This document shows, in pieces, positions 6,328 to 57,317 of a stretch of DNA of 64,000 nt; within the stretch, counting starts at the first letter, position 1, and every line of letters begins with the position of its first letter. This stretch comes from Hysterangium stoloniferum (Eukaryota; Basidiomycota; Agaricomycetes; Hysterangiales; Hysterangiaceae), in assembly GCA_015178975.1 (NCBI GenBank), contig WHVD01000123.1, positions 1 through 64,000 of the forward strand, written 5' to 3'. The notes under the pieces are model-generated. The model was not told the DNA's origin. It did not search any database and saw only the letters and a program-made list of their open reading frames with translations. The position numbers and the translations under genes were made by a program.

Positions 6328-9126
6328 GATAGGCATAATATTCACATTGGGTCACCTTCCGACTTTTATCTTCATCTTCACCTTCTTCATCCTGCTGTCC
6401 AGGCTGGGGCTGCCAATTTTGATTGGCATAGGGAATGTCCCATGACCAACCACACTCACCCCTGGGAAAGAGCATGACATAATGAAGGGGTGTATAAATG
6501 GCTTGTGCATCATGGACATGATGGAACTGGCTGTTAAGTGCCGTGTCGGGAACTTATTCCGGAACTATCGGGAAGTCACCGGGAAGTCGGAAACTTGTAG
6601 ATAGGGTCAGGACGTCGGCTTCAGCTTATGTGCTGCACCTCTACGCAAACGCTCAATGTCCTTAATTTCGGAAGTGAACTAACAACGGAAGATATGGATA
6701 TTCAGAGTTCCGAAGAGTTCCGAATATCGAGCATACAGAAAGACGGGAGGAGGAATAAGAAACTAAGTCGATATCAGATCTAAAGTAAAGTACAAATTCG
6801 CGGAAACTAATATAAGTCTACTCGTTATTGTACTACAAACTGAGACCATAATAAGACGGAAACGGAAGTGTTCTTAAAACGGAAATACAATAAGACATAT
6901 TAGGAAGACAATATTCCGAGACGGGAATACAACAACAAACGAGTGAATACTTGTCAACAGACAAATTACCAAATGCGGAACAAACGAAGAACGCGGATGA
7001 TACGGTAACTATGATGTTCCGTAGTCGGATACCGGATATTGAAAGTGGGAGATCGGAAGTCGGATATTGAAACATCCAGGAACGGGTCGTAACACTGGCC
7101 CCCTCTCCTCTGAACAATAATATCCCTTGGGTCACCAGGGAGAATGAGTGCAAGTTCATCACCAGTTGGAAGATTGTACCGTCTGGGATCATTAAAAGCT
7201 TTGTAGCTCAGCCTGACATGTAGCCTTGGAGTCTCTGCCTGTGTCCTCAATCGCTCATGTGCCTGGCGATAGAGTTGTATAAAGGGATTGTATTGCTCTA
7301 TCATATCTTGCAAGTCAGAAAAAGTTTGGTTATTTAAGTTTCTATTTGCCCTATGATTCTGCCTCTGCTGAAATGCCTGCCTCAGTCCATCCTCCTGTGC
7401 CAATGCAGGATCATGGATGTAAAGTTGAGCATAACTATGTGATACACCTTCTCCATAAGGAATCAAGGAACCATGCTGGTGATACAATTCACCATGAATT
7501 TTAAAGACATATGGACCACCACCACCTTGCAAGACAGACTCATCCAAATTGACACCCAGTGATGTAAATGCAAATGCATTATTATAGGCACGAATATTCT
7601 TGAGAAATTCTTTGCTATTGTCTGTATTACCCTCCAGGAGAGACCTTAAAGTGTGAGGGACTGGCTCAAGTATTGGGAGGGCCACCTTTCCTCACTTGCA
7701 ACACTTGCCAAATTTTGGATGTGTCTTAGAGCTATTTGAAACACACATCCATCCAGTGCAAAGCTCCACAGTCTGAACACTGTATGTCCATGCGTCCCAA
7801 GTCATGTCTTTGAAACCTATCCTCCACAACTGGTTGCCGTCCAATGGGTAATTGTGGAATGGGAGGTGGAGGTGGAGGCATGGCTGCAGGCTGTGGAATG
7901 GCTGGAGGTGGGGGCATGGCAGGAGGTGGAATAGCTGGAGGTGGGGGCATGGCAGGAGGTGGAACCCATTGTAGCTGTGGTTGTACAGCTGCATTTGCTG
8001 CTGGCTGTGGAATAGCTGGAGGTGGTGGCATGACAGCAGGTGGGGGAGGCATGGCAGGAGGTGGAACCCATTGCAGCTGTGGTTGTACAGCTGCATTTGC
8101 TGCTGGCTGACCATGCTGAATAGGTGGTCCTGGTTGCAGAGATGGATGGTGGTGGTGCTGTGGTGGTGCCAATTGCAATATAGGTACCTGTGGGGCTGCA
8201 TGCCTAGGTGGATGGTGGTGCTGTGGTGGTTCCCATTGTAAATTAGGCACCTGTGGAGCTACATGGCTGAGTGGATGGTGGTGCTGTGGTACCCATTGTA
8301 AATTAGGCACTTGTGGAGCTACATGGCTAGGTGGATGGTGGTGCTGTGGTGGTGCCAATTGTAAAATGGCTGTCTCTGGTTGTACAGCTATATTTACATT
8401 TGTATGTGCCTGTGGTTGTTGAAGTATATTTGCATTTACATGTGTATGCCCAGAAGGTTGCAAGGCTGCTTGTAGAGCTTGAGCCTGAGCACACATGGCA
8501 GCCACTGCAGCAGAGCCAAGTGGGGGCACAGCTTGATTTGCAGGTGCATGTGGATTCTGTGGAGGAGGCTGCAATGGTGGCAGAGGTGCAGGAGGATTTC
8601 TACCATGGTGAGACATTACTGCAGGATGCCCAGGAACCAACAATGGATTATTATGAGATGGGCCTGCAACCACTGGAGGTTGAGGAGGCAATGGTTGTTG
8701 AGTTATATTTTTATTTGCACATTTATGGTGAGAAGGTTGCAAGGTTGCTTGTAGAGCTTGAGCCTGAGCATGCATGGCAGCCACTACAGCAGAGCCAAGT
8801 GGGGGTGGCACAGCTTGATTTGCAGGTACATGTGGATTCTGTGGAGGAGGCTGCAATGGTGGCAGAGGTGCAGGAGGATGTCTACCATGGTGAGGCATTA
8901 CTGCAGGATGCCCAGGAACCAAAAATGGATCATCATGAGATGGGCCTGCAACTGCTGGAGGATGTAGGAATGGTTGAGGAGGTGGTGGGGGATACATATC
9001 ATGTAACTGATTCTGCATATCAGAACGCTCACGGCGGATAGTTGGAGAGGTCATTTGCAAACGCTGCCTACACTCTTCATCTCACTCCTGCTGACGATGA
9101 CACTCAGGTGTTTGAGGAGGGTCCAT
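6328..9126 (-). pseudogene. Helitron A Rep-helicase, N-terminal part, decayed
   Basis: The family start codon is at 9126-9124. A TGA follows 14 codons later (9084-9082), then a long open stretch from 9060 to 7732 encodes a Pro/His/Gln-rich region and the zinc module beginning CSDCGALHWMD. Relative to copy B, a small indel near 7740 shifts the frame, and a TGA replaces the Gln codon after KCCK near 7690. The Helitron_like_N region follows (LPILEPVPHTLRSL, then FKIHGELYHQ) to 7095. A solo LTR interrupts it at 6532-7094. The last fragment, 6531-6328, encodes the LFPRGE/WSWDIPYAN stretch. No Rep active site or helicase from this copy is in the window. Confidence 0.85.
6532..7094 (-). mobile_element. 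Solo LTR of the same Ty3/gypsy family, inverted
   Basis: The 563-bp sequence is the reverse complement of the LTR at 5765-6327. It is flanked by a perfect 5-bp target duplication, CTGGC, at 6527-6531 and 7095-7099. The uninterrupted site is seen in Helitron B near 16541-16560. No internal sequence remains, as expected after LTR-LTR recombination. Confidence 0.96.
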
Positions 9127-10230
9127 AATAGATGGTTCAGCTAAGCTGGGAGAGTAGACAGCTGGGGCAGAGGGAATGTGAAAAGCAGATGAGTCTATAA
9201 AAAAGAAGGTCCCAAAAGGTATTAACAATTGACAGCAGCATAAGCCAATGGCACAAACCCACTTATGAGCAATAGAATGATCTCAAGATGTGTGCAGCCA
9301 AATCAGGAGGCAAGACAAATACAGGAAATGCACTGGAAATGAATTATTTGATTGTTAAAATATAAAGATAAAAACTGGAATTCACCTTTAAAATCGTCCT
9401 GATTATTAGAAAGCAGTGACAAATAATAGGAGGAGTAGAAGAATGAGGAAATGGGAAGAGCAGATAAATCCAAAGAAAAGTCCAGTCAAATATTGGAGAG
9501 AATGAGTTCCTAAAATAAATATTAAACAATTTTATGCTAAGGAAGAGCACCCAAAATAACATACCGGGAGATTTCTCAAAGGGGAAAGAATAGGTGACAG
9601 GGCAAAAAGTGACCAACTATTATGAAATTTATTTTAATTTATTAAACAAACCAAACAATCAAGCCAAGACTCACCTCGTGCCTTAAAAAGCACTCAACAG
9701 CAGAGGAGGAATGTAGAAATTGAGCAGGGAGAGAGGGATTGAAGCAAAATATACTAAAATGGTCCAAAAAAGCATAGAAAAAGAGATTAAATATTGGATA
9801 GCAATGTAAACAGATCACAAACACACCTGAAGAGTCTATTCCCAAATTTAGAGCCAGAGAGAAGTGCAGAAAGAGGCCAATTGTGACTGCATATATATTA
9901 TTTAATGATTAAAGGAGCAGAAATTAATCAAAAGCCAGGACTCACCTTGTACCTTAAGAACAGAGGGAGAATACACCAATTGAGAAGTCAAAGGTAGATG
10001 GAGGGGGATTGAAGCAAAAGATACTAAAATGACCCAAAAAAGGATAGAAAAAGAGATTATATATACTGTATAACAGTGTAAACAGATCACAAACACACCT
10101 GAAGACAGTGTATATCCTTCAGAGATTCTATTTCCAAATTTAGAGTGAGAGAAAAGTGTGGAAAGAGATCAATTCCGGCTGTATATATATTATTTAATCA
10201 TTTAAAAAGCAAAATTATAATAAAATATGA
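9127..10230 (-). other. Helitron A 5' leader: AT-rich, internally repeated, no gene seen
   Basis: At least two diverged modules of roughly 250 bp (about 9650-9900 and 9930-10190) share words such as AAACAGATCACAAACACACC, GACTCACCT and TATATATTATTTAAT. On the minus strand they present repeated AGGTGAGTC-like splice donors. ORFs here are short and unconvincing. Confidence 0.6.
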
Positions 10231-10648
10231 TACAGGACTCAACTGCCTTTAATGAGGACCTAATACCTTACAGAATTAGTTCAAGAGGGGTCCCAAACAA
10301 TACAGGTAGCAGAGGGCCGGGCAGAGGGAGAGGGATGGGAGATAGGAGTGGCAGCCTTGAGGCTTACAGCGGACTTCCGTTGTTCCTCGGCACTTACTGG
10401 AATTGCTCCCGCGCACGTTAAATGACTTGGGTGCTTGCAGAAAAACTCCCACGGTGTCGAAAAAGCTCCTGCGATTGCAAAATTGCATCCACGCTGGCAC
10501 AGAAATGCCTCTGTGCTGACACATCACTTGGTGCTTATGTCATGGTGCCTAGCGGCACCATGACGGGGGCTCGGGCACCTGGCGGCACCCTTGCTCCCAA
10601 AAAAGGAAAACGGGACCCACCACCCACCGTACAACTTTACTTTATATG
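10231..10648 (-). other. Helitron A 5' terminal region
   Basis: A degenerate array of the CTCCCGCG/GCAAAATGC type (about 10390-10520) is followed by GGCACC/GGTGCC-type inverted repeats and the terminal stretch ending TTTATATGA at the junction with unit 1. Confidence 0.6.
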
Positions 10649-10777
10649 ACAAGCCTGGGAACCCTTGCTACGCTGTGGGGCGGTCCCTTCGTGACCTGCC
10701 CCCAAACCCCCCTGCATCCACAACTCTAAAGTATTTCAGAGGTCCTTGTTGTAAAAGAGAAACTGTTAGAACAGAAA

Positions 10778-11640
10778 GTGTTCGCAGAACGGAAAGTGTT
10801 CGCCGAACGGAAAGTGTTCACAGAACGGAAAGTTTTCACAGAAGGGAAAGTCCCCTTAGAAGGGAAAGTCCCATTAGAAGGGAAAGTCCTGTTAGAAGGG
10901 AAAGTCCCATTAGAAGGGAAAGTCCTGTTAGAAGGGAAAGTCCCATTAGAAGGGAAAGTCCCGTTAGAATGGAAAGTCCCGTTAAAGTCCCGTTAGAAGG
11001 GAAAGTCCCGTTAGAAGGGAAAGTCCCGTTAGAAGGGAAAGTCCCGTTAGAAGGGAAAGTCCCGTTAGAAGGGAAAGTCCCGTTAGAAGGGAAAGTCCCG
11101 TTAGAAGGGAAAGTCCCGTTAGAAGGGAAAGTCCCGTTAGAAGGGAAAGTCCCGTTAGAAGGGAAAGTCCCGTTAGAAGGGAAAGTCCCGTTAGAAGGGA
11201 AAGTCCCCTTAGAAGGGAAAGTCCCGTTAGAAGGGAAAGTCCCCTTAGAAGGGAAAGTCCCCTTAGAAGGGAAAGTCCCCTTAGAAGGGAAAGTCCCCTT
11301 AGAAGGGAAAGTCCCCTTAGAAGGGAAAGTCCCCTTAGAAGGGAAAGTCCCCTTAGAAGGGAAAGTCCCCTTAGAAGGGAAAGTCCCCTTAGAAGGGAAA
11401 GTCCCCTTAGAAGGGAAAGTCCCCTTAGAAGGGAAAGTCCCCTTAGAAGGGAAAGTCCCCTTAGAAGGGAAAGTCCCCTTAGAAGGGAAAGTCCCCTTAG
11501 AAGGGAAAGTCCCCTTAGAAAGGAAAGTCCCCTTAGAAAGGAAAGTCCCATTATAATGGAAAGTCCCGTTAGAATGGAAAGTCCTGTTAGAACAGAAAGT
11601 CCCCCTAGAATGGAAAGTCCCCCTAGAACGGAAAGTTGGC
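10778..11640. repeat. 18-bp minisatellite, unit 1 (about 43 copies)
   Basis: The consensus is AGAAGGGAAAGTCCCNTT. The left half mostly carries CCCGTT and the right half (from about 11206) almost only CCCCTT, so two variants have spread as blocks. A few AACGGAAAGTGTTC-type copies at 10778-10840 link it to the other unit arrays. The 18-bp period gives open frames on both strands; these are not genes. Confidence 0.95.
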
Positions 11641-12110
11641 AGTCACTTTGTGACCTGCCCCACTGCTTGCTGTGGGCTTCAGCTGTCACAAATGTACAAC
11701 TCAAATTTCGATAATATTCAATTTAATATTTCTTTGACATTTCTTTGATATTTCTTTCACATTTTCTTTGACAGTTCTTCAACATTCCTTTGACATTCCT
11801 TCAACTTTCCAACTTGACTTCCGAGTTGACTATTCTTCAACAATATCTTCGACAATCTCAAATATCTTTGACTTGGCTCTGTTTGATGTCATTGATGATT
11901 TCTGTTTTGATATTATATTATCATCAAGAAAACAACCGTGACAAAAGGAAACAACCGTGACAAAAGGAAACAACCGTGACAAAAGGAAACAACCGTGACA
12001 AAAGGAAACAGTTAGAAAGGAACAACAGTTACAAAAGGAATAAAGGTTCCAAAAGGAACAACAGTTTCAATGGTTGAATTGACTATCACTTGCAAGTAAT
12101 TACCATGGTC
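11640..12110. repeat. Array tail with 19-bp CAACCGTGACAAAAGGAAA repeats
   Basis: 11935-12005 holds about four copies of the 19-mer, then AACAGTTACAAAAGG-like copies to 12070. The stretch 11640-11935 is T-rich with repeated TTTGACATT/TTCAACATT words. No gene seen. Confidence 0.8.
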
Positions 12111-12345
12111 ACCTGATTTATTTATTTTGATTTCATAAATTTTATTCTGATTTATTGTATTCTATTGACTTCCTGCATTTTATTCTGTTTTATTGTATTT
12201 TATTTGGATTTATCATATTTTATTTAGATTTATTGCTATTTCTTCTTGATTTATCATATTGTATTTCGATTTATTCTATTTTATTTTAATTATTTGTATT
12301 TTATTTTACTTATTCTCGGATTTTATTATGATTTTCCCGGAAATC
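12110..12345. repeat. AT-rich TTTTATTTTGATTTATTG tract, unit 1
   Basis: Imperfect repeats of TATTTTATTTTGATTTATTG with almost no G+C. The same tract recurs at an equivalent place in most satellite units. Confidence 0.85.
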
Positions 12346-12389
12346 CTTGTAGACTTCCCCCAGGAATAAGGGATCCATGCCCGGGAGCT

Positions 12390-12720
12390 GGCCTCCATGA
12401 AGGGCGCAGGAAATGCTTCCATGAAGGCCGTGGGAACTGCTTCCATGAACCGCACGGGAATACTTCCATGGGGAGAGTCGTGGGAAACTTGTCCATTAGG
12501 GGCACGTGAAATGGTTCTGTGCACTTAAGAAATACTCCCGGGACATCACAAAAGCTCCGGCGGTGTCATAAATACTCCTGCGGTGTCGAAAAAGCTCCTG
12601 CGATTGCAAAATTGCATCTGCGCTGGCACAGAAATGCCTCCATGCTGACACATCATGCTTGTGTCATGGCGCTGCTAGGCGCCATGATGGGGGCTCGGGC
12701 TCCTGGTGGCGCCCTCACTA
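12390..12720. repeat. GC-rich 5' arrays and hairpins, unit 1
   Basis: Imperfect GGGAAATGCTTCCATGAA-type repeats (12390-12510) are followed by AAATACTCCCG-type repeats (12525-12650) and a GGCGCCATGATGG...GCTCCTGG hairpin area. Confidence 0.65.
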
Positions 12721-12969
12721 CCAAAAAAGGAAAACGGGACCCACCACCCACCATACAACTTTACTTTATATGACAAGCCTGGGAACCCTTGCTACACTGC
12801 GGGGCAGTTGCTTTGCGACTGGCCCCACAACTCCGCTGCGGGCTCCGGCTTGTTGGGGGGCGAAGCCCCCCAAACCCCCCCGCATCCATCACTCTGAAGT
12901 ATTTCTGTGTACTTCTAAGTATTTATCATACTCTTACAAATTTTCAATCAAACAAAATACATTAAATCT

Positions 12970-13287
12970 TCAATCTAATAATACATCTTTGTACACTATA
13001 TTCGCAGTTCTCTTTTTCTCCTTTAATAATATTTTTATCCTATTCCAACTTCTTCCTATTGAAAGTCCCACATACAATTGTCCATGTCCAAATACTGCCA
13101 TTCTCAAATCTATTCCCACCACTTTCAAAGACTGTCCCTGTGACTTGTTAATAGTCATTGCAAATGCTAACCGCACTGGAAACTGAATACGATGCAGTTT
13201 AAATGGCAGTTGATCATCATTTGTAATGATTTTCACCCGTGAAATAAATGCTGGTTGCCCAGTACAGGGTCCAGTTAGGATCCACAC
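12970..13287 (-). CDS. Helitron B helicase C-terminal piece
   Basis: Carries the late superfamily 1 helicase motifs: TINKSQGQSL (motif V-like) and YVGLSIGRSW (motif VI-like; Ile replaces the Arg of copies C, D and E). It ends at the conserved VLLD terminus. It is separated from the preceding piece by an in-frame stop near 13323. Confidence 0.9.
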   Translation of the reverse strand: MWILTGPCTGQPAFISRVKIITNDDQLPFKLHRIQFPVRLAFAMTINKSQGQSLKVVGIDLRMAVFGHGQLYVGLSIGRSWNRIKILLKEKKRTANIVYKDVLLD

Positions 13288-13322
13288 TGAAGCAAATTAT
13301 TTTCCATTTTCAACAGTTGCAA

Positions 13323-14090
13323 TCATGTCCCATTGAAAAGTCCCCTCTGTGGATCTATATTCTGTAACAGCATCAAAGGTACTCCTGGCTTCATCTCAAG
13401 TCGACTTGGAGAGATTCCACCAAAATTCAGGCTGTTCAAATACTCTACAGGATACATCTCTGTCTCACTGTCTCCCTCTGCAGTATCAGCACTGTGGTAC
13501 ATCTGACTCTCCCCTGGAAATTTATTCAGAAGTTCTGAATTAATCTCATCCACCTCTGAATTTCTTGGACACAGAATTGCCCGGTCTAAGAAGTCTCCAT
13601 CTTGCCAATCTCTTTGGTCTCTATCCACATGGATGTCTGGATATATCTCAGCAATCAGATCAGACATTTCTGGACCACAGATCATATGAGGAGGGATATC
13701 CATTGTATGATCCAAAGGTAAATCCTTTCCATGGCCTACATCCAAGAGCCACTGAGCAAACTGTTCACTTTCTGGATCATCCTGATCCACCCGCATATTC
13801 TTTTTCAAGAATAGTATCTTAATATGCTTCCAGAGTTCTGATTTCTGGATACATTGTCCAATGATCTGTTCTTTTGAACCCTTGGGTACAACAGGCAAAG
13901 TCTGATGGAAGTCACCTCCCCAGGCAACAGGAAGCCCTCCAAAGAGAAGATCCTCCTTGTCTAATAAATCCCTCAGGGTTCTGTCAACTGCCTCACATGT
14001 GAAATGTGACTGCATAGGAACTTCATCCCAGATAATCAGTCGCACTTCCTTCATGAGCTCTGCCTTTGTGATCCCTTTTTGATATGACAT
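13323..14090 (-). CDS. Helitron B helicase middle piece
   Basis: Contains Walker B LIIWDEVPM and the PIF1-like GGDFHQTLPV motif, with the conserved run through NSLNFGGISPSRLE. One frame break near 14080 separates it from the Walker A piece upstream. Confidence 0.9.
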   Translation of the reverse strand: MSYQKGITKAELMKEVRLIIWDEVPMQSHFTCEAVDRTLRDLLDKEDLLFGGLPVAWGGDFHQTLPVVPKGSKEQIIGQCIQKSELWKHIKILFLKKNMRVDQDDPESEQFAQWLLDVGHGKDLPLDHTMDIPPHMICGPEMSDLIAEIYPDIHVDRDQRDWQDGDFLDRAILCPRNSEVDEINSELLNKFPGESQMYHSADTAEGDSETEMYPVEYLNSLNFGGISPSRLEMKPGVPLMLLQNIDPQRGLFNGT

Positions 14091-14314
14091 AGAGCATCCT
14101 TCTCACAGGGAACAGGGATTGAAAATGTGCTGTGAGAAGTGCGACCACCCTTGAGAATCATTGATGCAATTCCAGAGGATGCCACACAAAGCACAATGTA
14201 GCCCTTGGCCCTACATGCATGTGCCAGAGTATTCCATACAAAGGACTTGCCAGTGCCTCCTGGACCATTGACAAAGAACAATTTGCCTTCTTGTTGCTCA
14301 TCCACTGCCTTCAT
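14051..14314 (-). CDS. Helitron B helicase Walker A piece
   Basis: Carries FFVNGPGGTGKSFVWNTL, the Walker A ATP-binding motif, then SSGIASMILKGGRTSH. The frame is lost just after KKGS. Confidence 0.9.
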   Translation of the reverse strand: MKAVDEQQEGKLFFVNGPGGTGKSFVWNTLAHACRAKGYIVLCVASSGIASMILKGGRTSHSTFSIPVPCEKDALCHIKKGSQRQSS

Positions 14315-14617
14315 GATAGTCTCAAAGGCAGCATGTTGTTCAGGATTGCACTTTTCAAGATTAGCTTGGGCACTGGCAAGCTCATGTTGAATATTATAAC
14401 TCTTTTGCTCTTTAATGAGATAGTTGCCAACAATGGCATCCTAATTATCAGTGCAGTTTGGCATGGTTGGATAGTGTGAGAGGGACTTTCCAGAATAGCA
14501 TAGGATCTTATCAATTTCATAGACCAAAGTCATAAACTTGGATTGGTGATGGATTCTCAATGCCATGTGTTTGCTGAAGTATGAACTCCAAATCATCACA
14601 AAGAAATACTTTGAAGT

Positions 14618-14903
14618 CATTCCAGAGTTCATGGAGTTGTGCAGGGGAGGACATTGTCAAAATGATGGCAAATAACCTTCGCAGTTGAAACCCAGATTGT
14701 ATACCACTGGCTTCTCTGAGGCACATATGCCACTGGCGGTCATCTTCAAGAAAACCACGTCATTCCAGAGTTCATGGAGTTGTGCAGGGGAGGACATTGT
14801 CAAAATGATGGCAAATAACCTTCGCAGTTGAAACCCAGATTGTATACCACTGGCTTCTCTGAGGCACATATGCCACTGGCGGTCATCTTCAAGAAAACCA
14901 CGT
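14618..14903 (-). repeat. 143-bp direct tandem duplication inside Helitron B
   Basis: The sequence starting CATTCCAGAG at 14618 recurs at 14761. 143 is not a multiple of three, so the copy shifts the frame between the Rep and helicase domains. Confidence 0.95.
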
Positions 14904-16135
14904 GCCACACAGGCTTGTTGAAATGTAGGATAAGTCTCACCCTGAAAGGTCCTGAGCTGTTCAAATGAAGTGGCACCTTTGACAACAGTGAGCAAAGTAT
15001 GTAGGTGGAATCTTTCCCCGCTGGCAATATTGACAAAATGAATATGCCCTATTGAAAACCCACTTTGACATGGCTTCCATGATTTCTTCTTGGGTACAAA
15101 TGTGAAATACTCAGGAAAATCCATATAAAATGTATCCTGGGCATGCTGTCCATTATAACCAATGAGACCTTTGGCATTAGCTTCAAAATAGGCCATGAGA
15201 GTTGTCCCTGAATACTCTGCCCTTTGTAAAGCCTCAGCAGGACCTTGATCACCATCAAAAAGTACAGTGTTTTCCCCAGGGAGATGGACTTTAAGTGCCA
15301 TTACTGCAGGAACCTGGGTGTGGAGTTCATTACACATTAACCACCAGACAGACTCATGTGCACTGACATAACGTGCATCAAGGTACTGTTGAATCTCATC
15401 TGGTGTCCTTCCAAATTCCATAGTTGTATGATCATGGCCCTTGTAGCAGTATTTATGCATGTACTTCATTGACCTATTGGTAAAGGTCAACTCTACATTG
15501 ATGTGGCATTCAAAGGTGATAATCAAAATAGGGGAGTAAGGGACAACATGTCTGGGGTCATATGTAAACTTGGGAGTTTCATAAACCCTTCCATTGTTGG
15601 GGCGAGCATATGTTGGATAGCCTTCCTCATTGACAATGGTGGCTTCACACCAATCCTTTGGATAGTATTTACTGCACTTCTTATCAACCATACAGGCAGC
15701 ATTTGGATGTTCATCTCCACAGGGGCCATGGGTCATTAGTTGTCCTACTAAATTAAATAGTCTGGGATGTGTTTCAGGATCTGGAAAACAGGCAGAAACA
15801 AATGAGTCAACATCTTCTGATGTCCTTGGCTTATTCTGGTCATCAAACCATATGAGGCAGTGCATGTGTGGAAGACCCCGCTTTTGGAATTCAATGACAT
15901 GGATATGGGCTACTGTTCTCCCAAAGATCTGGTCCTCTGTAATCATCTTGAGCAACTTAGCCTTCTTGGCAGCAAAGGCACGGGAGACCAAATCAGGACA
16001 ATCAGCAGCAGTCTGTCCAGGAAGCAATTCATCAGTAACCTCCTTCCACTTGGGATTGGCTGTCATGGTGATGAAGCAGCTGGCATTGCCATACTTGCGT
16101 GCAATTGCAAATGAATTTTGTAGACTTTGTCTCAT
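14657..16135 (-). CDS. Helitron B HUH Rep nuclease piece
   Basis: An open stretch of 492 codons. It contains the HUH metal site in GLPHMHCLIW and the twin-tyrosine region KYMHKYCYKG, which in Helitrons nicks and joins DNA at the element ends. CFITMTANPKW precedes it and matches Helitron Rep proteins. Its last 35 or so residues after HELWND come from the 143-bp duplication and are out of register. This is the best-preserved nuclease in the window. Confidence 0.93.
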   Translation of the reverse strand: MRQSLQNSFAIARKYGNASCFITMTANPKWKEVTDELLPGQTAADCPDLVSRAFAAKKAKLLKMITEDQIFGRTVAHIHVIEFQKRGLPHMHCLIWFDDQNKPRTSEDVDSFVSACFPDPETHPRLFNLVGQLMTHGPCGDEHPNAACMVDKKCSKYYPKDWCEATIVNEEGYPTYARPNNGRVYETPKFTYDPRHVVPYSPILIITFECHINVELTFTNRSMKYMHKYCYKGHDHTTMEFGRTPDEIQQYLDARYVSAHESVWWLMCNELHTQVPAVMALKVHLPGENTVLFDGDQGPAEALQRAEYSGTTLMAYFEANAKGLIGYNGQHAQDTFYMDFPEYFTFVPKKKSWKPCQSGFSIGHIHFVNIASGERFHLHTLLTVVKGATSFEQLRTFQGETYPTFQQACVARGFLEDDRQWHMCLREASGIQSGFQLRRLFAIILTMSSPAQLHELWNDVVFLKMTASGICASEKPVVYNLGFNCEGYLPSF

Positions 16136-16181
16136 ATCCCTTGAACTGCCAGTAAATGTAGAAGTGTACTGACATCCTGAT

Positions 16182-18008: not shown

Positions 18009-18400
18009 GGCATTAACAGGTGGATGACTATGCTGGACTGGTGCAGATTGGACAATTTGAGCAGCTGGATTTCCTCATCCACAACCCCACCTAAGAGGTT
18101 GTAATAGTCGTAAATATTCATACTGCCTACGCAAGAGAGCCATTGCATCAGCGCCACCTGCAGCAGAGCCACCTGCAGCAGAGCCACCTGCAGTAGAGCC
18201 ACTTAGCTGAGCAACCAAAAATGGATTATCAGATTAACCTCTACCAAAGGAAAATGGAGATCTCAAAATGGTTGAGCAGGGGGTGGTATATTAGAATTCA
18301 CAACTAAACACCAATGACAATCAGATGGAGATGTCATTTGAAATTGTGCCCTATGCTGCCTTCACTCTTCCTCCCAATTATGCTCAGGTGTTCGATCCAT

Positions 18401-19620: not shown

Positions 19621-19659
19621 CAGCCTTGAGGCTTGACCACGGGCTTCCTGCATTCCTGC

Positions 19660-22000: not shown

Positions 22001-22019
22001 AGGAAAGAGTACATGCATC

Positions 22020-44600: not shown

Positions 44601-44942
44601 TGGGTGCGCTGACTAAGGAGGTGACTAAGCTGATGGTACCTTTTACCTGCCTTTTACAGAGGGAGTTCGGGCGCTCCGCGCCCTCACAGCGCCTAAAAGC
44701 GCCCACGGACCCACCATGCTCCTTTCACTTATTTGACAAGCCTGGGAACCCTTGCTACGCTGCGGGGCGGTCACTTCGTGACCTGCCCCACAACTTCGCT
44801 GCGGGCTCCGGCTTGTTGGGGGGCTTCGCCCCCCAAACCCCCCGCATCCATGACTCTTAAGTATTTCTGAGCACTTCTAAGTATTTACATATCACAATCA
44901 CTGTTCAAAAAATTTAATCAAAACAATAAATACTTTAAAACT

Positions 44943-46690: not shown

Positions 46691-47754
46691 CGTGCCCACT
46701 GCAAAATAGGTAGTTGTTGTTGTTGTGGAGCTGGATTTCCAGACGGATGATGATGCTGTGGTGGTGCTAATTGCAAAATGGGTACCTGTGGCTGGAGTTG
46801 TGGAACTGCATTAATCAAAGCATGACTATGTTGCAGTAGTGCAGATGGATGACTTTGCTGTACTGGTGGAGGTACATTTCCTGGTTGATGACCATGCTGT
46901 GGATGTGGTGCTGACTGTAAAATTTGTGGCTGCAATTGAGCAGGTTGGTCTAATGGTGGTAAAGCAGCATACTGAGCATACAGAGCAGCTACTCCAGCAG
47001 AGCCAACTGCAGGCTGGAGAGCTTCATCTGCAGGTGCACCCTGTTGTATATAAAGTGGTTGCTGAGGTTGAGCAGCTACATTGCCTCGTACATGACCTGG
47101 TGCCTGTGGCTGAACAGGTGCATTTGCTGGTTGATGACCCTGCTGGATATGTGGTGCTAACTGCAAAATTGGTTGCTGCAATTGAGCAGCTACATTGCCT
47201 TGTACATGACCTGGTGGCTGTGGCTGAACAGGTGCATTTGCTCGTTGATTACCCTGCTGGATATGTGGTGCTAACTGCAAAATTGGTCGCTGCAATTGAG
47301 CAGCTGGATTTCTCCGTCCACGACCCTGCCTAAGAGGTTGTAATGGTGGCAAATTTTCATACTGCCTACGCAAAAGAGCCACTGCATCAGAGCCAACTAT
47401 AGTAGAGCCACTTGCAGCAGAGCCACTTGCAGCAGAGCCACTTGTAGCAGAGCCACTTGCAGCAAAGCCACTTGCAGCAGAGCCACTTGCAGCAGAGCCT
47501 CTTGTAGCAGAGCCTCTTGCAGCAGAGCCACCTGCAGCAGAGCTACCTGCAGTAGAGCCATCTGGCTGAGCAACCAAAAATGGATTATCAGGTTGACCTC
47601 TACCAACAGGGAGATCTCCAAATGGTCGAGGAGGGAGTAATATATTAGAATTCACAGCTAAACGTCAATGACGATCAGATGGAGATGTCATTTGCAATTG
47701 TGCCCTACGCTGCCTTCGCTCCTCCTCCCGATTACGCTCAGGAGTTCGATCCAT
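46691..47754 (-). pseudogene. Helitron E N-terminal region, joined out of frame
   Basis: The family start MDRTPERNREEE is at 47754-47752. Codon 30 is TGA (47667-47665) where copy D has CGA. After it the frame is open through a Ser-Ala-Ala-Ser-Gly repeat region (47398-47560) and Pro/Gln repeats to PILQWA, then it meets the helicase part at about 46692 in the wrong frame and ends at 46606. Confidence 0.87.
47398..47560 (-). repeat. 15-bp coding minisatellite in Helitron E
   Basis: About eleven copies of AGCAGAGCCACTTGC encode repeated ATSGS/AASGS pentapeptides. Copies C and D have only two to four, so the array expanded in E. Confidence 0.93.
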
Positions 47755-47789
47755 ACTAATATAGCAATCACAGCAGTAGCAGCAGAGAG

Positions 47790-48730
47790 AGAAACCCTGC
47801 AAGAGAGGGGGAAGAGAGGAGGGGCAGAAAGTTGTAGTGAATTAGGCTAAAATAATCCAAAGAAAATTACAGGGAAAGGACTCACTTTCAATACTCCACT
47901 TATACTTATAGGGAGTGGTCACAAACACAGTAGAGAGTGGCAGGGAAAAGAAATGCAGCCAAATGGGTCTAAAATAGCCTAAAAACACGAAAAATAATGT
48001 ATAAATATTTTTTAATAGCATGAGGGAAGGTACCAATACAAACCTGGAGATATGCTATATCTTCCAGTAACAATAGAAACAGCAATCAAGGTAAAACGGC
48101 CCAGAATAGAGGGTCAATCTCACTGTAAGAACAATATTTGAGCAAAAAAAGGTAAGATTAATTACAGGGACAGGAATCACCTTCAATACTCGACTTATAA
48201 TCACAGAGAAAACTCAAAAAGCAGTGGAGAGTCCCAGGGAAAGGAAATTCAGACAAATAGGTCTAAAATAACCCAAAAATGGGAAAAATAATTCATAAAT
48301 ATATTACAACAGCATGAGAAAGCTCAAAACATACCTGGTATTATAGGGTAGCCTTCAGACTGTGTATTCCAATGAGAAGAACACCCAGGAAAGGGTAATC
48401 TGACTGCAAATAAATTATTTAATCATTAAACAAAGTGAAAATTAATTAATAATAGGTAGGAGCTCACCACACCTTTTATATTGCCTGAGGAGTTGAAGAA
48501 GGCTTCAGAGATGATAAATGATCAATATGGGGGTCCAGGGCCAGTGGATAGCCAGACTCTAACTGCAGGATAATATATCTAACTATTAAAAAAGCGAAAT
48601 TTAATACAATTAAATAGAGCCCTCAACACACCTTGGTCTGGGCCCAGGTACCCTGAGAAATATTCCAGAGAGGATCCCCTCACAATTTACAGAGGACAAA
48701 GCCGGGGGAGGGAGAGGGGAAGGGAGAAAG
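47790..48730 (-). other. Helitron E 5' leader modules, no gene seen
   Basis: The same modules as copy D; high identity around 48320-48600 and 39310-39580. No convincing ORF. Confidence 0.7.
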
Positions 48731-48779
48731 TGTGGCAGCCTCAAGGCTTTACAGCGGGCTTCCGGGCTTCCCGCGGCTA

Positions 48780-49076
48780 TGGCCGACGATGTTGCCACGC
48801 GTCCCAAAATAGTTCCGGGTATGTCACAAATGTCACGGGAAAAGCTCCCGCGGCGGCACAAATACTCCCGCGGCGCTAAAATGCTCCCGCGAACGCCAAA
48901 AAGCATCCGAATTTGCTCCCGCGCTGACTAATAAGAGACTTCGGGCGCTAACGCGCCCTCAGCTGAGTCACACACTCCCACCCCTGAGGGTTCGGGCGCT
49001 CCGCGCCCTCACGGATTAGGGCGCCTTCGGCGCCAAAAAGCGCCCACCACCCACCAAGCAACTTTACTTTATTTGA
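48780..49076 (-). repeat. CTCCCGCG array and 5' hairpins, Helitron E
   Basis: CTCCCGCGGCG repeats (48840-48920), GGGCGCTAACGCGCCC, GGGCGCTCCGCGCCC and GGCGCCTTCGGCGCC inverted repeats, ending ACTTTATTTGA. Confidence 0.87.
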
Positions 49077-49239
49077 CAAGCCTGGGAACCCTTGCTACGC
49101 TGCGGGGCGGTCACTTCGTGACCTGCCCCACAACTTCGCTGCGGGCTCCAGCTTGTTGGGGGGCTTCGCCCCCCAAACCCCCCCGCATCCATGACTCTTA
49201 AGTATTTCTGAGGCCCATTGTTCTAAAAGGGAAGCTGTT

Positions 49240-49845
49240 AGAACGGAAAGTCACTTTAGAACGGAAAGTCACTTTAGAACGGAAAGTCACTTTAGAACGG
49301 AAAGTCACTTTAGAACGGAAAGTCACTTTAGAACGGAAAGTCACTTTAGAACGGAAAGTCACTTTAGAACGGAAAGTCACTTTAGAAAGGAAAGTGGCAT
49401 TAGAACGGAAAGTCACTTTAGAACGGAAAGTCACTTTAGAACGGAAAGTCACTTTAGAACGGAAAGTCACTTTAGAACGGAAAGTCACATTAGAAAGGAA
49501 AGTTGCATTAGAACAGAAAGTCACATTAGAACGGAAAGTCATTTAGAATGGAAAGTCACTTTAGAATGGAAAGTCACTTTGGAATGGAAAGTCACATTAG
49601 AATGGAAAGTTGCATTAGAAAGGAAAGTTGCATTAGAACAGAAAGTCATGTTAGAACAGAAAGTCGTGTTAGAGCAGAAAGTCACTTTAGAAAGGAAAGT
49701 TGCATTAGAACGGAAAGTCATTTAGAATGGAAAGTCATGTTAGAATGGAAAGTCACATTAGAAAGGAAAGTTGCATTAGAACAGAAAGTCACATTAGAAT
49801 GGAAAGTCATGTTAGACAGAAAGTGTTCAGGGAATGGAAAGTGTT
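49240..49845. repeat. 18-bp minisatellite, unit 11
   Basis: AACGGAAAGTCACTTTAG copies, uniform at the left and degenerate at the right (CATTAGAAAGGAAAGTTG variants after 49490). Confidence 0.95.
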
Positions 49846-49879
49846 ATAAAGTAAACAACAGTAACATAGAAAACAGTAG

Positions 49880-50420
49880 TTACAAAGGAAGGATACAAAG
49901 GTTACAAAGAAATCAACGGTTACAAAAGAAATCAAAGGTTACAAAAGAAATCAAAGGTTACAAAAGAAATCAAAGGTTACAAAAGAAATCAACGGTTACA
50001 AAAGAAATCAACGGTTACAAAGGAATCAACGGTTACAAAGGAATCAACGGTTACAAAGGAATCAACGGTTACAAAGGAATCAACGGTTACAAAGGAATCA
50101 ACGGTTACAAAGGAATCAACAGTTACAAAGGAATCAACAGTTACAAAGGAATCAATGGTTACAACGGTTACAAAAGAAATCAATGGTTACAAAGAAATCA
50201 ACGGTTACAAAGGAATCAACGGTTACAAAGGAATCAACCATTACAAAAGGGAACAACCATTACATAACTTCTAAGTATATCTGGGGCTTTGCTGTTTTAG
50301 AACTAAAGCCATTTAAAGAATGGAAAGTGTTCTAAGAACGGAAAGTGTTCTAAGAGTGGAAAGTGTTCTAAGAATGGAAAGTGTTCCAAGAACGAAAAGT
50401 GTTCCAAAAATGGAAAACAA
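49880..50420. repeat. GGAATCAACGGTTACAAA array and second AACGGAAAGTGTTCTAAG array, unit 11
   Basis: 18-mers to 50250, then GGAAAGTGTTCTAAGAA copies at 50325-50410. The second array suggests a fusion of two satellite units. Confidence 0.9.
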
Positions 50421-50574
50421 TAGAAAAGCAAACATCAGTCACAAATGGAAGCCACAGCCACAAAAGGGCACAATGGTTACAAAAGGAGACACAGGTTACA
50501 AATGGAAACAATGGTTACAAATGGAAAGAGTGGTTAAATTGACTCTCAACTGCAAGTAATTACTGTGGTCACTC

Positions 50575-50715
50575 AATTTATTTATTTTGATTTAGCATTT
50601 TATTTTGATTTATTGAATTTTATTTTATTTTATTGTTTTTCATTTCAATTTATTTTATTTTAAAACATTTTATATTCACTTATTATATTTTATTTGAATT
50701 ATTCTGATTTTATTG
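50575..50715. repeat. AT-rich tract, unit 11
   Basis: Short version of the TTTTATTTTGATTTATTG tract. Confidence 0.82.
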
Positions 50716-52300
50716 AGGCCAATCAGATGGGGACGGAGGAAGAAGGAAACAGTACACACAGCAGCTGGACAAAGAGAGAAGGAAACAGTACACACACTCA
50801 CTGAAGAAAGGGTACACACACCACCTGGAGGAAAGAGAGGGCTGGTCAGAGGAGGATGGTGGAAGAAGGAAATGGTAGACATACTTTAGGAAAGAGAGAG
50901 TAGGCCAATCAGAGGAACACGCACTGGCTGGAGGAAAGAGAATGGAGGCCAATGAGGGCAGGATGAAGAGAGAAGGAAAGGGTACACAAACCACCTGGAG
51001 GGAAGAGAGAGGGCAGATCAGAGCAGGATGGAGAGAGAATGAAATAGTACACGCACTCGCTGGGGGAAGGAGAGAGGAGGAAAGGGGACATGGACCTCCT
51101 GGAGAAAAGAGAGAGGACGAAGGGAGAAGGAAACGGTACAGGCAGTGGCTGGAGGAAAGAGAGAGGAGGCCGATCAGAGAATGAAGAGAGAAGGAAACGG
51201 TACACACACCTCCTGGAGGAAAGAGAGAGGACGAAGGGAGAAGGAAACGGTACACACAGAGGCTGGAGGAAAGAGAGAGGAGGCCGATCAGAGGACGAAG
51301 AGAGAAGGAAACGGTACACACACCTCCTGGAGGAAAGAGAGAGGACGAAGGGAGAAGGAAACGGTACACGCAGAGGCTGGAGGAAAGAGAGAGGAGGCCG
51401 ATCAGAGGACAAAGAGAGAAGGAAACGGTACACGCACCTCCTGGAGGAAAGAGAGAGGACAAATGGAGAAGGAAATGGTACATGCACCGGCTGGAGGAAA
51501 GAGAGAGGAGGCCAATTAGAGGAGGATGAAGAGAGAAGGAAATGGTACACACACCTCCTGGAGGAAAGAGAGAGGAGGCCGATCAGAGGAGGACAAAGGG
51601 AGAAAGAAACAGTACACCCACCGGCTGGAGGACAAAGGGAGAAAGAAACAGTACACACACCGGCTGGAGGAAAGAGAGGGGAGGTAAATCAGCACAGGAC
51701 AGAGGAAGAAGGAAATGGTAGACGCACCGGCTGTAGGAAAGAGAGGGGACAATCAGAGGAGGACAAAGAGAGGGGAAAGGGAATGCGCACCGGCTGGAGG
51801 AAAGAGAGGGGCCAATCAGAAGAGGACAGAGAAAGAGGGAAAGGGGGACAATCAGAGGAGGACAAAGAGAGAGGGGAAAGGGAATGCGCACCGGCTGGAG
51901 AAAGAGAGGGGGCCAATGAGAAGAGGACAGAGAGAGAGGGAAATGGAACGCGCACCGGCTGGAGGAAAGAGAGAGGAGGCAAATCAGCGCAGGACAGAGG
52001 AAGAAGGAAATGGTAGACACACCGGCTGGAGGAAAGAGAGAGGGTCCCAATGAGAGGAGGATGGAGAGAGAAGGAAATGGTACACACACCTGGAGGAAAG
52101 AGAGGAGGATGATCAGAGGACAAAGAGAGAGGAAATGGTACACGCACCAGCTGGACAAAAGAGAGAAGAGGTCAATCAGAGGAGGACGGAGAGAGAAAGA
52201 AACAGTACACACACTCGCTGGAGGAAAGAGAGAGGAGGCGGATTAGCGCAGGACGGAGGGAGAAGGAAAGAGTACACACATCACCTGGAGGAAAGAGAGA
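50715..52300. repeat. ~60-bp purine-rich minisatellite, unit 11
   Basis: A ~117-bp double unit is repeated near-exactly at about 51110-51450, showing recent local amplification. Confidence 0.93.
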
Positions 52301-52873
52301 GGACGCGCCGTGAATGGGAGAGGGCGCGCCGTGAATGGGAGTGGGTGCGCCGTGAATGGGAGTGGGTGCGCCTTGGATGGGTGCGGGCGGATGGGTGCGC
52401 CGTGGATGGGAGCGGGTGGATGGGTACACCGTGGATGGGAGCAGGTGCGCCGTGGATGGGTGCGCCGTGGATGGGTGCGCCGTGGATGGGTGCGGGCGGA
52501 TGGGTGCACGGTGGATGCAGTATAACAATACTGCCGCGGCATTGCAAAATACCTCCGCGCACCTGATATAATACTCCCGCGCATGTAAAAATACCTCCGC
52601 GCGTCATAAAATACCTCCGCGCACGTGACAAAATACTCTCGCGCTTGCATAAATACTTCCGCGTTAGTCACAAATACTCCCGCGAGCGCAGAAATGCTTC
52701 CGCGAATGGCAAAAAGCCTCCGCATTTGCTCCCGCGCTGAGTAATAAGGAGCTTTGGGCGTCAATATTAGTCACACTCTCCCACACCTCCAGGTTCGGGC
52801 GCTCCGCGCCCTCACGAACAGGGCCTGCGGCGCCTAAAAACGCCCACCGCCCACCAAGCAACTTTACTATATA
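52300..52873 (-). repeat. GTGGATGGG and CTCCCGCG arrays, 5' hairpins, unit 11
   Basis: GTGCGCCGTGGATGGG copies (52310-52515), CTCCGCG-type copies (52520-52730), then GGGCGCTCCGCGCCC. 52500-52800 closely matches 22240-22560 in unit 3 but with fewer CpG losses. Confidence 0.88.
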
Positions 52874-53037
52874 CAAGCCTGGGAACCCTTGCTACGCTGC
52901 GGGGCGGTCGCTTCGCAACCTGCCCCCCAACTTCGCTGCGGGCTCCGGCTTGTTGGGGGGCTTCGCCCCCCAAACCCCCCCGCGTCGACAACTCTAAAGT
53001 ATCTCTGAGGTCCATTGTTGTAAAAGAGAAACTGTTA

Positions 53038-53515
53038 GAACGGAAAGTGTTCGCAGAACGGAAAGTGTTCGCAGAACGGAAAGTGTTCGCAGAACGGAAA
53101 GTGTTCGCAGAACGGAAAGTGTTCGCAGAACGGAAAGTGTTCGCAGAACGGAAAGTGTTCGGAAAGTGTTCGCAGAACGGAAAGTGTTCGCAGAACGGAA
53201 AGTGTTCGCAGAACGGAAAGTGTTCGCAGAACGGAAAGTGTTCGCAGAACGGAAAGTGTTCGCAGAACGGAAAGTGTTCGCAGAACGGAAAGTGTTCGCA
53301 GAACGGAAAGTGTTCGCAGAACGGAAAGTGTTCGCAGAACGGAAAGTGTTCGCAGAACGGAAAGTGTTCGCAGAACGGAAAGTGTTCGCAGAATGGAAAC
53401 GGAATCAACGGTCGCAGAACGGAATCAACGGTCGCAGAACGGAATCAACGGTCGCAGAACGGAATCAACGGTCGCAGAACGGAATCAACGGTCGCAGAAC
53501 GGAATCAACGGAAAC
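53038..53515. repeat. 18-bp to 20-bp minisatellite, unit 12
   Basis: About twenty GTTCGCAGAACGGAAAGT copies (one shortened at 53160), then six AGAACGGAATCAACGGTCGC copies. The order is as in unit 8. Confidence 0.96.
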
Positions 53516-55011
53516 ACCCGTTACAAAGTACATCCCAGTTACAAAGGAACGGAACAAAGGTTACAAAGAACATACTGGTTACAAAGGAACGAAACAAAGG
53601 TTACAAAAGAAAACAACAGTTACAAAGGAATACAACCATGACAAAAGAAAACAATGATCACAAAAGAAAACAAAGGTCACAAAAGAAAACAAACAGTCAC
53701 AAAAGAAAACAACGGTTACAAAAGAAAACAACAGTCACAAAAGTGTAAGAATGGAAACTGTTTAAAGAACAGAAACCATTACAAAAGATATTACAAAAGA
53801 CAGAAAGAAATATCACAAATGGAACAATGGGTACAAAAGGAGCAACAGTTTCAAAAGGAGTAATGGTTTCAAAAGGAGTAATGGTTTCAGATGGAGTAAC
53901 TGTACAGTTCTGAATAGAAATTGAGTTGATTCAACTGGAATTGATGTGCAATTGACACAGCATTGATATGATATAGCATTGATTGAGAAGAGGAGAACAT
54001 TCATTAAGCATTCATGGAACATTGATTGAGAATTGATAAGCATTGAAGAAACATTAATAGACCATGCATTGAGCATTGATATATTGTATTGTATTTTGAC
54101 ATATTTATTGTATTTTAATTTATTGCATTTTATTTTGATTTATTTTATTCTATTTTTAAATATTTTATTTTGATTTATTGTATTTTATTTTGATTTTTCC
54201 GATTTTATTTAATTTTGAAGCATTTTATTTTCATTTACTGTATTTTATTTCGATTTATTCTATGTTATTTTATTTTTAAACATTCTATTTTCATTTATTG
54301 TATTTTATCGAATGCTTCCGTGAGGGGCGCGAGAAATACTCCCCCAAAACGGCGCGGGGACTTCATCCGGAAACGTCGTGGGAAATGTGTCCCTGAGGGG
54401 CGCGGGAAATAGTCCGGTGAAGGGCGTGGGAAATCCGTACGAAAATGCTTACGTGAACGGCGCGGGAAATGCTGACATGAAGGGCGCGGGGAATTCTATT
54501 GGAGGTGCGTGGGAAATGTTTTTATTAGGGCGTATGAAATGGTTCCGCGCATGTGACAAATACTCCCGCGCGTTTCAAAAATGCTCCCACGGCATCGGAA
54601 AATACCTCCGCGCATGTGACATAATACTTCCGCGCACGTGACAAAATACTCCCGCGCGTGGGACAAATACTTCCGCGCGTCACAAAATACCTCCGCGCGT
54701 TGAAAATACTTCCGTTCGCGTCACAAAATACTCCCGCGGCGCCACAAATGCTCCCGCGCTGTCAGAAAAGCTCCCGCGGCGCCATTAAATACTCCCGCGA
54801 GTGCAAAAATGCACCCGCGCTGACTAATTGAAGAATTCGGGCGCTAACGCGCCCTCATTTCTGGGCGGCCTAATCGGGGTAGCGTTCGGGCGCTCCGCGC
54901 CCTCACAAATTGAGGAAATATTCGGGCGCTCCGCGCCCTCACGGATTGGGGCGCCTTCGGCGCCCAAAAACGCCCACCACCCACTGTACAACTTTACTAT
55001 ATATTGATTGA
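53515..55011 (-). repeat. Mixed, AT-rich and GC arrays and hairpins, unit 12
   Basis: GGTTACAAAAGAAAACAAC repeats (to 53880), AT-rich tract (54080-54310), GCGCGGGAAATG array (54315-54540), CTCCCGCG array (54555-54820), then hairpins including two GGGCGCTCCGCGCCC copies. Confidence 0.9.
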
Positions 55012-57240
55012 CAAGCCTGGGAACCCTTGCTACGCTGCGGGGCGGTCACTTCGTGACCTGCCCCACAACTTCGCTGCGGGCTCCGGCTTGTTGGGGGGCT
55101 TCGCCCCCCAAACCCCCCCGCATCAACAACTCTTAAGTATTTCTGAGGCCCATTGTTCTAAAAGGGAAGCTGTTTGAATGGAAGTCACATTAGAACGGAA
55201 AGTCATGTTAGAACGGAAAGTCACGTTAGAACGGAAAGTCACGTTAGAACGGAAAGTCACATTAGAACGGAAAGTCACGTTAGAACGGAAAGTCACGTTA
55301 GAATGGAAAGTCACGTTAGAACGGAAAGTCACGTTAGAACGGAAAGTCACGTTAGAACGGAAAGTCACGTCAGAACGGAAAGTCACGTTAGAACGGAAAG
55401 TCACGTTAGAACGGAAAGTCACGTTAGAACGGAAAGTCACGTTAGAACGGAAAGTCACGTTAGAACGGAAAGTCACGTCAGAACGGAAAGTCACGTCAGA
55501 ACGGAAAGTCACGTTAGAACGGAAAGTCACCTTAGAAAGGAAAGTCACTTTAGATGGAAAGTGTTCAGGGAATGGAAAGTGTTATAAAGGAAACACCCAT
55601 TACAAAGGAAGGAAACAACAAAGGAAGGAAACAATGGTTACAAAGAAAACACCGGTTACAAAGGAATCAATGGTTACAAAGGAATCAATGGTTACAAAGG
55701 AATCAATGGTTACAAAGGAATCAACGGTTACAAAGGAATCAACGGTTACAAAGGAACTCAATGGTTACAAAGGAACTCAATGGTTACAAAGGAACTCAAT
55801 GGTTACAAAGGAGTCAATGTTTGCAAAGGAGTCAATGGTTACAACACGAAATGAAAGGAAACAATTGTGATAAAGAGAAACAAAAGGAAACAAACATTAC
55901 AAAGGAAACACCCTTTACAATGGTCACAAAAGAAAAGAATGGTCACAAAAGAAAACAACAGTGACAAAAGAAAACAACAGTTACAAAAGAAAACAACAGT
56001 GACAAAAGAAAACAACAGTGACAAAAGTGTAAGAATGGAAACTGTTTAAAGAACAGAAACCATTACAAAAGGTATTACAAAAGACAGAAAGAAATATTAC
56101 AAATGGAACAATGGTTTCAAAAGGAACAATGGGTACAAAAGGAGCAACAGTTTCAAAAGGAGCAATGGTTGCAAAAGGAGTAATGGTTTCAAAAAAGCAA
56201 TGGTTTCAGATGGAGTAACTGAATAGAGATTGAGTTGATTCAACTGGAATTGATGTACAATTGAGACAGCATTGATATGATATAGCATTGATTGAGAATT
56301 GATAAGCATTGAAGAAACATTAATAGAGCGTGGATAGAGCATTGATATATTGTATTGTATTTTGATATATTTTATTGTATTTCAATAAAATGGAAAAATG
56401 ATATATTGTATTGTATTTTGATATATTTTATTGTATTTCAATTTATTCCATTTTATTTTGATTTATTTTGTTCTATTTTTAAACATTTTATTTTGATTTA
56501 TTGTATTTTATTCTGATTTTTCCGATTTTATGTAATTTTGAAGCATTTTATTTTCATTTACTGTATTTTATTTCGATTTATTCTATTTTACTTTATTTCT
56601 AAACATTTTATTTTCATTTATTGTATTTTATCGAATGCTTCCGTGAGGGCGTGGGAAAGACTCCCAAAAGGGGGCGGGCAATTCTCCCGGAAAGGTCGTG
56701 GGAATGTGTTCTTGAGGGGCGCGGGAAATGGTCCGGTGAAGGGCGTGGGAAATGGCTATGAGAACTGCGCGGGAAATGCTTACGTGAACGGCGCGGGAAA
56801 TGCTGACATGAAGCGGGAAATTCTACTGGAGGTTCGTGGGAAATGTGTCCGGTGTATGAAATGGTTCCGCGCATGACAAATACTCCCGCGCGTTCCGGAA
56901 AATACCTCCGCGCACATGACATAATACTTCCGGGCATGTAAAAATACCTCCGCGCACGTAATGAAATACTCCCGCGCGTAGACAAATACTTCCGCGCGTC
57001 ACAAAATACCTCCGCGCGTTAGGAAATACTTCCGCGCCCGTCACAGAATACTCCCGCGGCGTCACAAATGCTCCCGCGCCGTGAGAAAAGCTCCCACGGC
57101 GTCATTAAATACTCCCGCGTGTGCAAAAATGCCCCCGGGCTGACTAATAAGAGACTTCGGGCGCTAACGCGCCCTCACGCATTGGGGCGCCTTCGGCGCC
57201 TAAAAACGCCCACCACCCACCAAGCAACTTTACTATATAT
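55012..57240 (-). mobile_element. Unit 13: satellite unit, right end of the concatemer
   Basis: The 3' block (55012-55124) has GGTCAC-TTC-GTGACC and GGGGGGCTTCGCCCCCC. Arrays: 18-bp AACGGAAAGTCACGTTAG (55185-55555), GGTTACAAAGGAATCAATG (55600-55850), AT-rich (56340-56640), GCGGGAAATG (56650-56830) and CTCCCGCG (56870-57130). The 5' end, ACTATATATTGA, meets a microsatellite instead of another unit. Confidence 0.88.
55185..55555. repeat. 18-bp minisatellite, unit 13 (about 20 copies)
   Basis: The consensus is AACGGAAAGTCACGTTAG with rare TCAG variants. Confidence 0.97.

Positions 57241-57284: not shown

Positions 57285-57317
<33 letters not shown>

Follow-up and report, generated by a model that had tools for sequence, protein, structure and literature searches.

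Head-to-tail Helitrons in Hysterangium stoloniferum: an array probably assembled by successive insertions at resident 5' ends

The first 64 kb of contig C28 (WHVD01000123.1) of the basidiomycete Hysterangium stoloniferum, hereafter the window, contain an array of about 51 kb that consists of 13 Helitron units with both ends and one truncated leftmost unit (Table 1). We conclude that the array was probably built by successive separate transpositions of Helitrons that resemble HELPO2 of Pleurotus ostreatus, insert between A and T, and prefer the 5' termini of elements already resident. All 13 3' ends (CTTG, minus strand) between 10650 and 57243 have a single orientation, and each adjoins the 5' end of another unit; read on the minus strand, the elements begin with TC and end with CTTG, and the units between successive 3' ends measure 1.8 to 8.2 kb. 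U1, U3, U5, U8, and U11 derive from elements coding for RepHel, and the remaining units are non-coding and carry minisatellites. The genome searched for comparison comprised 111 Mb in 554 contigs.

A preliminary description of this DNA had proposed a head-to-tail concatemer of 14 units in one orientation, with five coding units pointing the same way. The layout was confirmed: the 15-base 3' end CAAGCYTRGGAACCC occurs 13 times exactly on the plus strand and 0 times on the minus strand (up to 3 mismatches allowed), each copy is directly preceded by the 5' end of another unit, the RepHel open reading frames (ORFs) of all five coding units lie on the minus strand, and coding and satellite-like units are indeed mixed in one array. 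Other details required amendment. Thirteen of the 14 units have both ends, but the leftmost lacks a 3' end and meets a 574-bp inverted duplication at 6328; the right end of the array is at 57243, not 57240. The 3' half of the 13 seams (the junctions between units) is constant, as described, but the 5' half falls into several subtypes (TCAATATATAG, TCATATAAAG, TCAAATAAAG, and TC[AC]AATAAGTG), and the 30-mer given as the common seam was found only three times in the window even with 3 mismatches (0 matches in 100 shuffles). The absence of host DNA between units holds within the window, whereas 13 of the 52 seams found outside it have a short spacer; the only extra bases in the window seams, a TCAA, are probably the displaced tip of U12.

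The elements are Helitrons that insert between A and T without target-site duplication, because their 5' flanks read A|TC, a T follows their 3' ends, and an empty site is present. The host-flanked 5' ends are all A|TC (12 rows, 11 of them distinct, accepted by eye from a loose search in which many chance rows were dropped by eye and one doubtful 5' end, L048, was set aside); rows labelled as host in L039, L042, and L057 were read as seams, a slightly different 3' end preceding each. A T follows each of the 18 host-flanked 3' ends. For a solo element at C1:2788388, the two flanks joined into one stretch recur at four other places, where they show 1, 3, 3, and 3 mismatches; the reversed control recurred at none. 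Matches to Helitron_like_N (6.7e-32 in U3) and PIF1 (3.7e-73 in U11) identify RepHel, although no single intact RepHel was seen in the window, the seven ORFs scanned being pieces; the best 120 protein matches of the U11 helicase include a Bondarzewia entry (49%), plant entries, and many metagenome entries. The 5' TC is present at the 12 accepted host-flanked ends; U12 starts TATA, and the partner of L012 starts CC. The 3' end is CTTG and not the canonical CTRR, a departure also reported for HELPO2 in passages of PMC4289320, and with A|T insertion it makes these elements HELPO2-like. A hairpin near the 3' end was found in U14, its stem lying around GGTCACGAAGTGACC (fold z-score -6.6); by our count it is about 27 nt away from the terminus, compared with the 10-15 bp quoted in PMC13286980. 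Two 3' end subtypes, CCAGGCTTG and CTAAGCTTG, were seen among L009-L038 and L059-L098, and the CTAAG type accounts by eye for 11/18 host-flanked ends and 17/52 seams.

The 3' ends are strongly enriched at resident 5' termini. Beyond the 13/13 in the window, 70 of the 87 3' ends listed elsewhere in the genome, which has 380 in all, were read, and 52 of these 70 adjoin another Helitron-type 5' end; the other 18 do not, and their host flanks, checked by eye, show no resemblance to a 5' tip beyond the T. If insertion were random, roughly 0.1% of events would be expected there, an estimate that assumes 2,000 5' ends genome-wide and a 60-bp neighbourhood. Of the 87 listed ends, 41 have a neighbour within 10 kb on the same strand, and 2 have one on the opposite strand. 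Two pairs in the sample are not independent, L023/L024 (an inverted duplicate) and L064/L073, and 52/70 may be a lower bound because the flank shared by L033 and L084, which starts with TC, may belong to a further Helitron-like family. The same host 3' flank follows L064 (C38:4367) and L073 (C41:2747) on two contigs, possibly representing two nuclear haplotypes retained in the assembly, or else a duplication.

The anatomy of the seams is informative about the insertion site. In the window, 11/13 are exactly CTTG|TC, one has the four extra bases TCAA, and one (52873/52874) lacks the tip of the resident; over all 65 seams (13 in the window and 52 outside), 45 are exact, 14 have a short spacer, and six lack a canonical start. 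The non-exact seams, two of 13 in the window and 18 of 52 outside, depart from the uniformly exact joints of a concatemer. Thirteen of the 14 spacers start with T and end with A, the form that a remnant between two A|T sites would take if a newcomer had inserted at an A|T slightly upstream of the resident. Four of the six irregular seams (at U12, L019, L027, and L062) were read as insertions at an A|T inside the tip, and the other two (L022 and L096) are AT-rich. The 45 exact seams fit a nick at the terminus itself, and the spacer and inside-tip seams indicate that nearby A|T sites are also used, so that a less strict attraction to the AT-rich tip is conceivable.

The alternative to be taken most seriously is that Helitrons simply prefer AT-rich A|T sites and that their 5' tips happen to be AT-rich. 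The tips are indeed AT-rich, and several A|T sites near a tip were used; however, the proportion of ends at resident tips, the predominance of seams at the exact terminus, and the host 3' flanks that do not resemble a tip all argue against it, and we consider it unlikely. A passive preference of this kind may nevertheless be at work and weighs against targeted insertion as the cause.

A record of consecutive insertions may be preserved at the right end of the array. U13 adjoins U12 without the TCAA of the latter, and the bases separating U14 from U13 are precisely TCAA; most simply, U12 would have arrived first, U13 would then have inserted at TCAA|TATATAG, and U14 would have followed at A|TCAA. 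L027/L057 is a like case with a displaced TCA, and an array on C2 (L019, L020, and L021) agrees as well, its tip being at the second outward junction rather than the next one. Several results count against a general pattern. When seams lacking a tip (C90, C124, and C544) were paired genome-wide with seams having a TCAA or near-TCAA spacer (C1, C153, C399, and C529), no contig was shared, so that U12-U14 is the only same-contig pair that the pairing test found; moreover, at the four tip-lacking seams where the next junction could be read, a matching tip was present at two, that of C2 appeared only at the second junction outward, and none was seen on C124. A spacer may also derive from host DNA, and a tip may come to lie further outward or at the margin of an array; this outcome therefore neither strengthens nor refutes the reading of displaced tips. 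When the 3' partners of other seams were compared for a different 3' end, none was reached; the partners match over long, repetitive stretches.

In the explanation that we favour, RepHel would bind and nick the left terminal sequence (LTS) of the resident, as it would to start transposition, and the incoming strand would be joined at the nick. Each newcomer would insert at the 5' terminus of whichever element lay furthest 5' at the time, or a few bases from it. The target would be the A|T that the preceding A makes with the first T of the resident, and the resulting seam would be CTTG|TC. The newcomer would supply a new 5' terminus preceded by A, and the array would extend only at its 5' (right) end. 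Thirteen separate transpositions would be needed, or fewer if any pair arrived together, with U1 the oldest and U14 the youngest, and the order of units would record their arrival. The preliminary description had stated that Helitrons insert into each other; that statement would hold here in a specific form, with the newcomer at the 5' terminus of the resident. We infer both that RepHel causes the targeting, via the LTS, and that growth is strictly 5'. The fuller proposition, that a RepHel nick at the resident LTS is the acceptor, that resident 5' termini are preferred, and that arrays grow only 5' as stratified records whose buried seams lose the A|T, appears to us evenly balanced between true and false.

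Growth only at the outer 5' end is expected because an A also stands before the new 5' end, which thereby retains the canonical target, whereas a buried seam is G|T. Among eight sampled arrays with a host-flanked 3' end, it is the 3'-most unit that carries it in seven. Within the window, the 3' blocks show less CpG decay the closer their unit lies to the 5' end of the array (rho -0.75, p 0.003; 13 units, 9 CpG columns). The best relatives of the coding units are 92-93% identical for U1 (long relatives), up to 97% for U3 (over its 3' 2 kb, with 90-94% over the next 3 kb), 97-98% for U5 (95-98% over its 3' 4.2 kb), and 98-99% for U11, over differing stretches. A number of observations weigh against strict growth of this kind. 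The exceptional array, on C68 (L082), has a host-flanked inner unit; the consensus of the 3' block leans on the right-hand units; other substitutions in the window have no significant trend (rho -0.44, p 0.14); and CpG decay in the short 3' blocks of neighbouring pairs outside the window gave 3 for, 3 against, and 11 ties, with no trend. In addition, the shared 3' part hardly separates the coding units (U3 97%, U5 97%, and U11 98-99%), and nearest-relative identity of the non-coding units is not monotonic: U2 78% for a 0.9-kb match (91% for one of 374 bp), U12 94%, and U14 90% (89-90%, at C113 and C69). Strict 5' growth is nonetheless likely, a judgement that depends mostly on the seams of U12-U14 and on the reasoning about the A|T site.

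Comparison of the units bears on explanations in which several arrived at once. With low-complexity sequence filtered and a match counted at 15% or more of a unit, identity between units is 74-91% wherever they match, and 9/13 neighbouring pairs have less than 15% of their length in common. The closest long match, U7/U13 (89-91%), is not between adjacent units; U13 and U14, which are adjacent, have 80-81% identity. Long pieces were searched against the genome with 40065-57243 as one query and U1, U2, U3, U5, and U14 singly. Kin of U11 at C63, C1, and C112 (98-99%) match into the next unit for only about 70 bp; judged by these alignments, the same U11-type element sits on different neighbours, and at least U11 arrived independently.

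Composite transposition, in which pairs or blocks of stacked Helitrons move together, draws on the recurrence of a U10-like 5' region beside a U11-like 3' region at C550, C334, and C153 (90-92%), and Fusarium Helitrons with multiple 5' termini are reported in passages of PMC5148889. Block transposition of unit pairs was not adopted, however, since in the long-piece searches listed above the nearest kin of U11 adjoin other units, and we regard it as improbable. Alternatively, Helitron circles, which are described as intermediates in parts of PMC5876387 and PMC5148889, might have been joined by homologous recombination through shared end blocks, with no transposase at the target; a 3' block of about 130 bp is common to most units, but recombination leaves unexplained the T...A spacers, the seams inside a resident tip, and the A|T insertion, making it very improbable. 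Mis-joining of repeats in the assembly merits equally little credence: repeats are hard to assemble, the array lies near the start of the contig, and its left end is palindromic, yet same-strand neighbours recur on many contigs in the numbers given above. Least probable of all, to the point of being hardly tenable, is the rolling-circle concatemer of the preliminary description, in which one transposition reads past its 3' terminator and many copies are inserted at once. An origin by rolling-circle replication has been proposed for bat and plant Helitron arrays, and both the uniform orientation and the resemblance of CTTG|TC seams to a circle junction would suit it; but amplification from one template predicts the opposite of the observed heterogeneity, the units being different elements and not near-identical products of one event, close kin of U11 have other neighbours, and spacers and a displaced tip, reflecting separate A|T sites, are unexpected from circle junctions. 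On unit heterogeneity and seam anatomy, the concatemer was rejected.

Table 1. Units of the Helitron array and adjoining features in the window.
Feature	Position	Strand	Basis or remark
U1, Helitron unit truncated at inverted duplication (3' end lost; 5' part and Rep region present)	6328..10649	-	5' end TCATATAAAG at 10649
U2, non-coding, internal minisatellites	10650..12773	-	3' and 5' ends, repeats
U3, coding-derived, RepHel in several ORFs	12774..20019	-	Helitron_like_N and PIF1 matches
U4, non-coding, minisatellites	20020..22637	-	ends, repeats
U5, coding-derived, RepHel in several ORFs	22638..30828	-	Helitron_like_N and PIF1 matches
U6, non-coding, minisatellites	30829..35250	-	ends, repeats
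U7, non-coding, minisatellites	35251..37951	-	ends, repeats
U8, short deletion derivative of coding element	37952..40064	-	87% covered by U11 at 87% identity
U9, non-coding, minisatellites	40065..41868	-	ends, repeats
U10, non-coding, minisatellites	41869..44736	-	ends, repeats
U11, internally deleted coding unit	44737..49076	-	open 569-aa PIF1-helicase ORF, 44943-46652
U12, non-coding, 5' tip without TCAA, starts TATATAG	49077..52873	-	94% relative at C528
U13, non-coding, read as inserted 4 bp inside U12 5' tip	52874..55007	-	seam CTTG|TATATAGTAAAG
TCAA, read as displaced U12 5' tip between U14 and U13	55008..55011	-	seam CTTG|TCAA|TCAATATATAG
U14, 5'-most, inferred youngest	55012..57243	-	5' end A|TCAATATATAG against (TCA/TCAA)n DNA
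Array 5' flank, TGA/TTGA microsatellite	57244..57317	.	multi-copy repeat from 57318

Two of the coding units have internal structure of their own. U8 joins the start and the end of RepHel in one 180-amino acid ORF, and the internal deletion junction of U11 lies at 46691/46692, many relatives matching up to or from exactly that point; in a copy at C63, about 2.9 kb separate the two parts that flank it. The non-coding units carry their own 17-20-bp minisatellite arrays (10840-11636, 20181-22000, 35408-35997, 40205-40699, and others), some of which are very regular, with about 35 perfect copies of a 17-mer at 35408-35997. The inverted duplication that interrupts U1 (5755-6328 versus 6531-7104, 97.9% identical, with a 202-bp spacer) could represent either a genuine foldback or a misassembly close to where the contig begins. 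To the left of the array, at 28-4336, are ORFs of a Ty3/gypsy-type retrotransposon (reverse transcriptase, RNase H, integrase, and chromodomain). To its right, within 57244-64000, is a repeat whose copies elsewhere are 78-92% identical; in five of them the match sets in at one and the same position, 57318. A search for an allelic copy of this 5' flank was uninformative, the flank being a multi-copy repeat.

Among known systems, HELPO2 has in common with these elements a basidiomycete RepHel, A|T insertion, the CTTG 3' end, and a subterminal hairpin; the likeness noted here is one of features, and the word "tandem" is absent from the main text of PMC4289320. The back-to-back Helitrons of maize described in passages of PMC2267711 are likewise two different elements head to tail with a G/T junction, and those authors consider insertion at an A|T made of a host A and a resident T; that case is a single pair of unsettled order, whereas here there are 13 seams in one array and 52/70 ends elsewhere. 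In fungi, the sections of PMC5148889 on three tandem Helitrons of Metarhizium acridum and on FoHeli4, 2 bp upstream of another Helitron, point to possible repeated 5'-end insertion, but these are single, Helitron2-like cases with the mechanism left open. The plant centromeric arrays of Xiong et al. (2016), as summarized in a passage of PMC12628747, are also tandem Helitron arrays; they contain truncated copies, many of the arrays having multiple 5' ends and a single 3' end, and are ascribed to rolling-circle amplification, whereas 13 of the 14 units here keep their own 3' end and the units differ. Bat Helitron clusters have head-to-tail junctions, sometimes with distantly related elements directly adjacent, and no systematic targeting of 5' ends is described in the passages concerned (PMC4067079 and PMC2267711); Helitrons lying side by side or in tandem are mentioned for silkworm as well (PMC4067079). 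For the maize and bat cases, the relevant part of PMC2267711 leaves open the choice between rolling-circle read-through and repeated insertion.

No report of systematic targeting of Helitron 5' ends was found in the open-access literature, most subscription papers lying outside the search. As far as these searches show, what is new relative to that literature is the scale, an array that is both long and mixed, and seams pointing to an order of insertion. To our knowledge, little is established about the choice of targets by Helitrons beyond the A|T dinucleotide. The seams described here argue for repeated insertion at resident 5' ends. Roughly three in four of the ends sampled show it, a proportion that looks more like habitual targeting than like accident. 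Stacking at 5' ends could supply a relative clock for Helitron lineages, and it suggests a way in which a transposon may accumulate harmlessly on its own kind.

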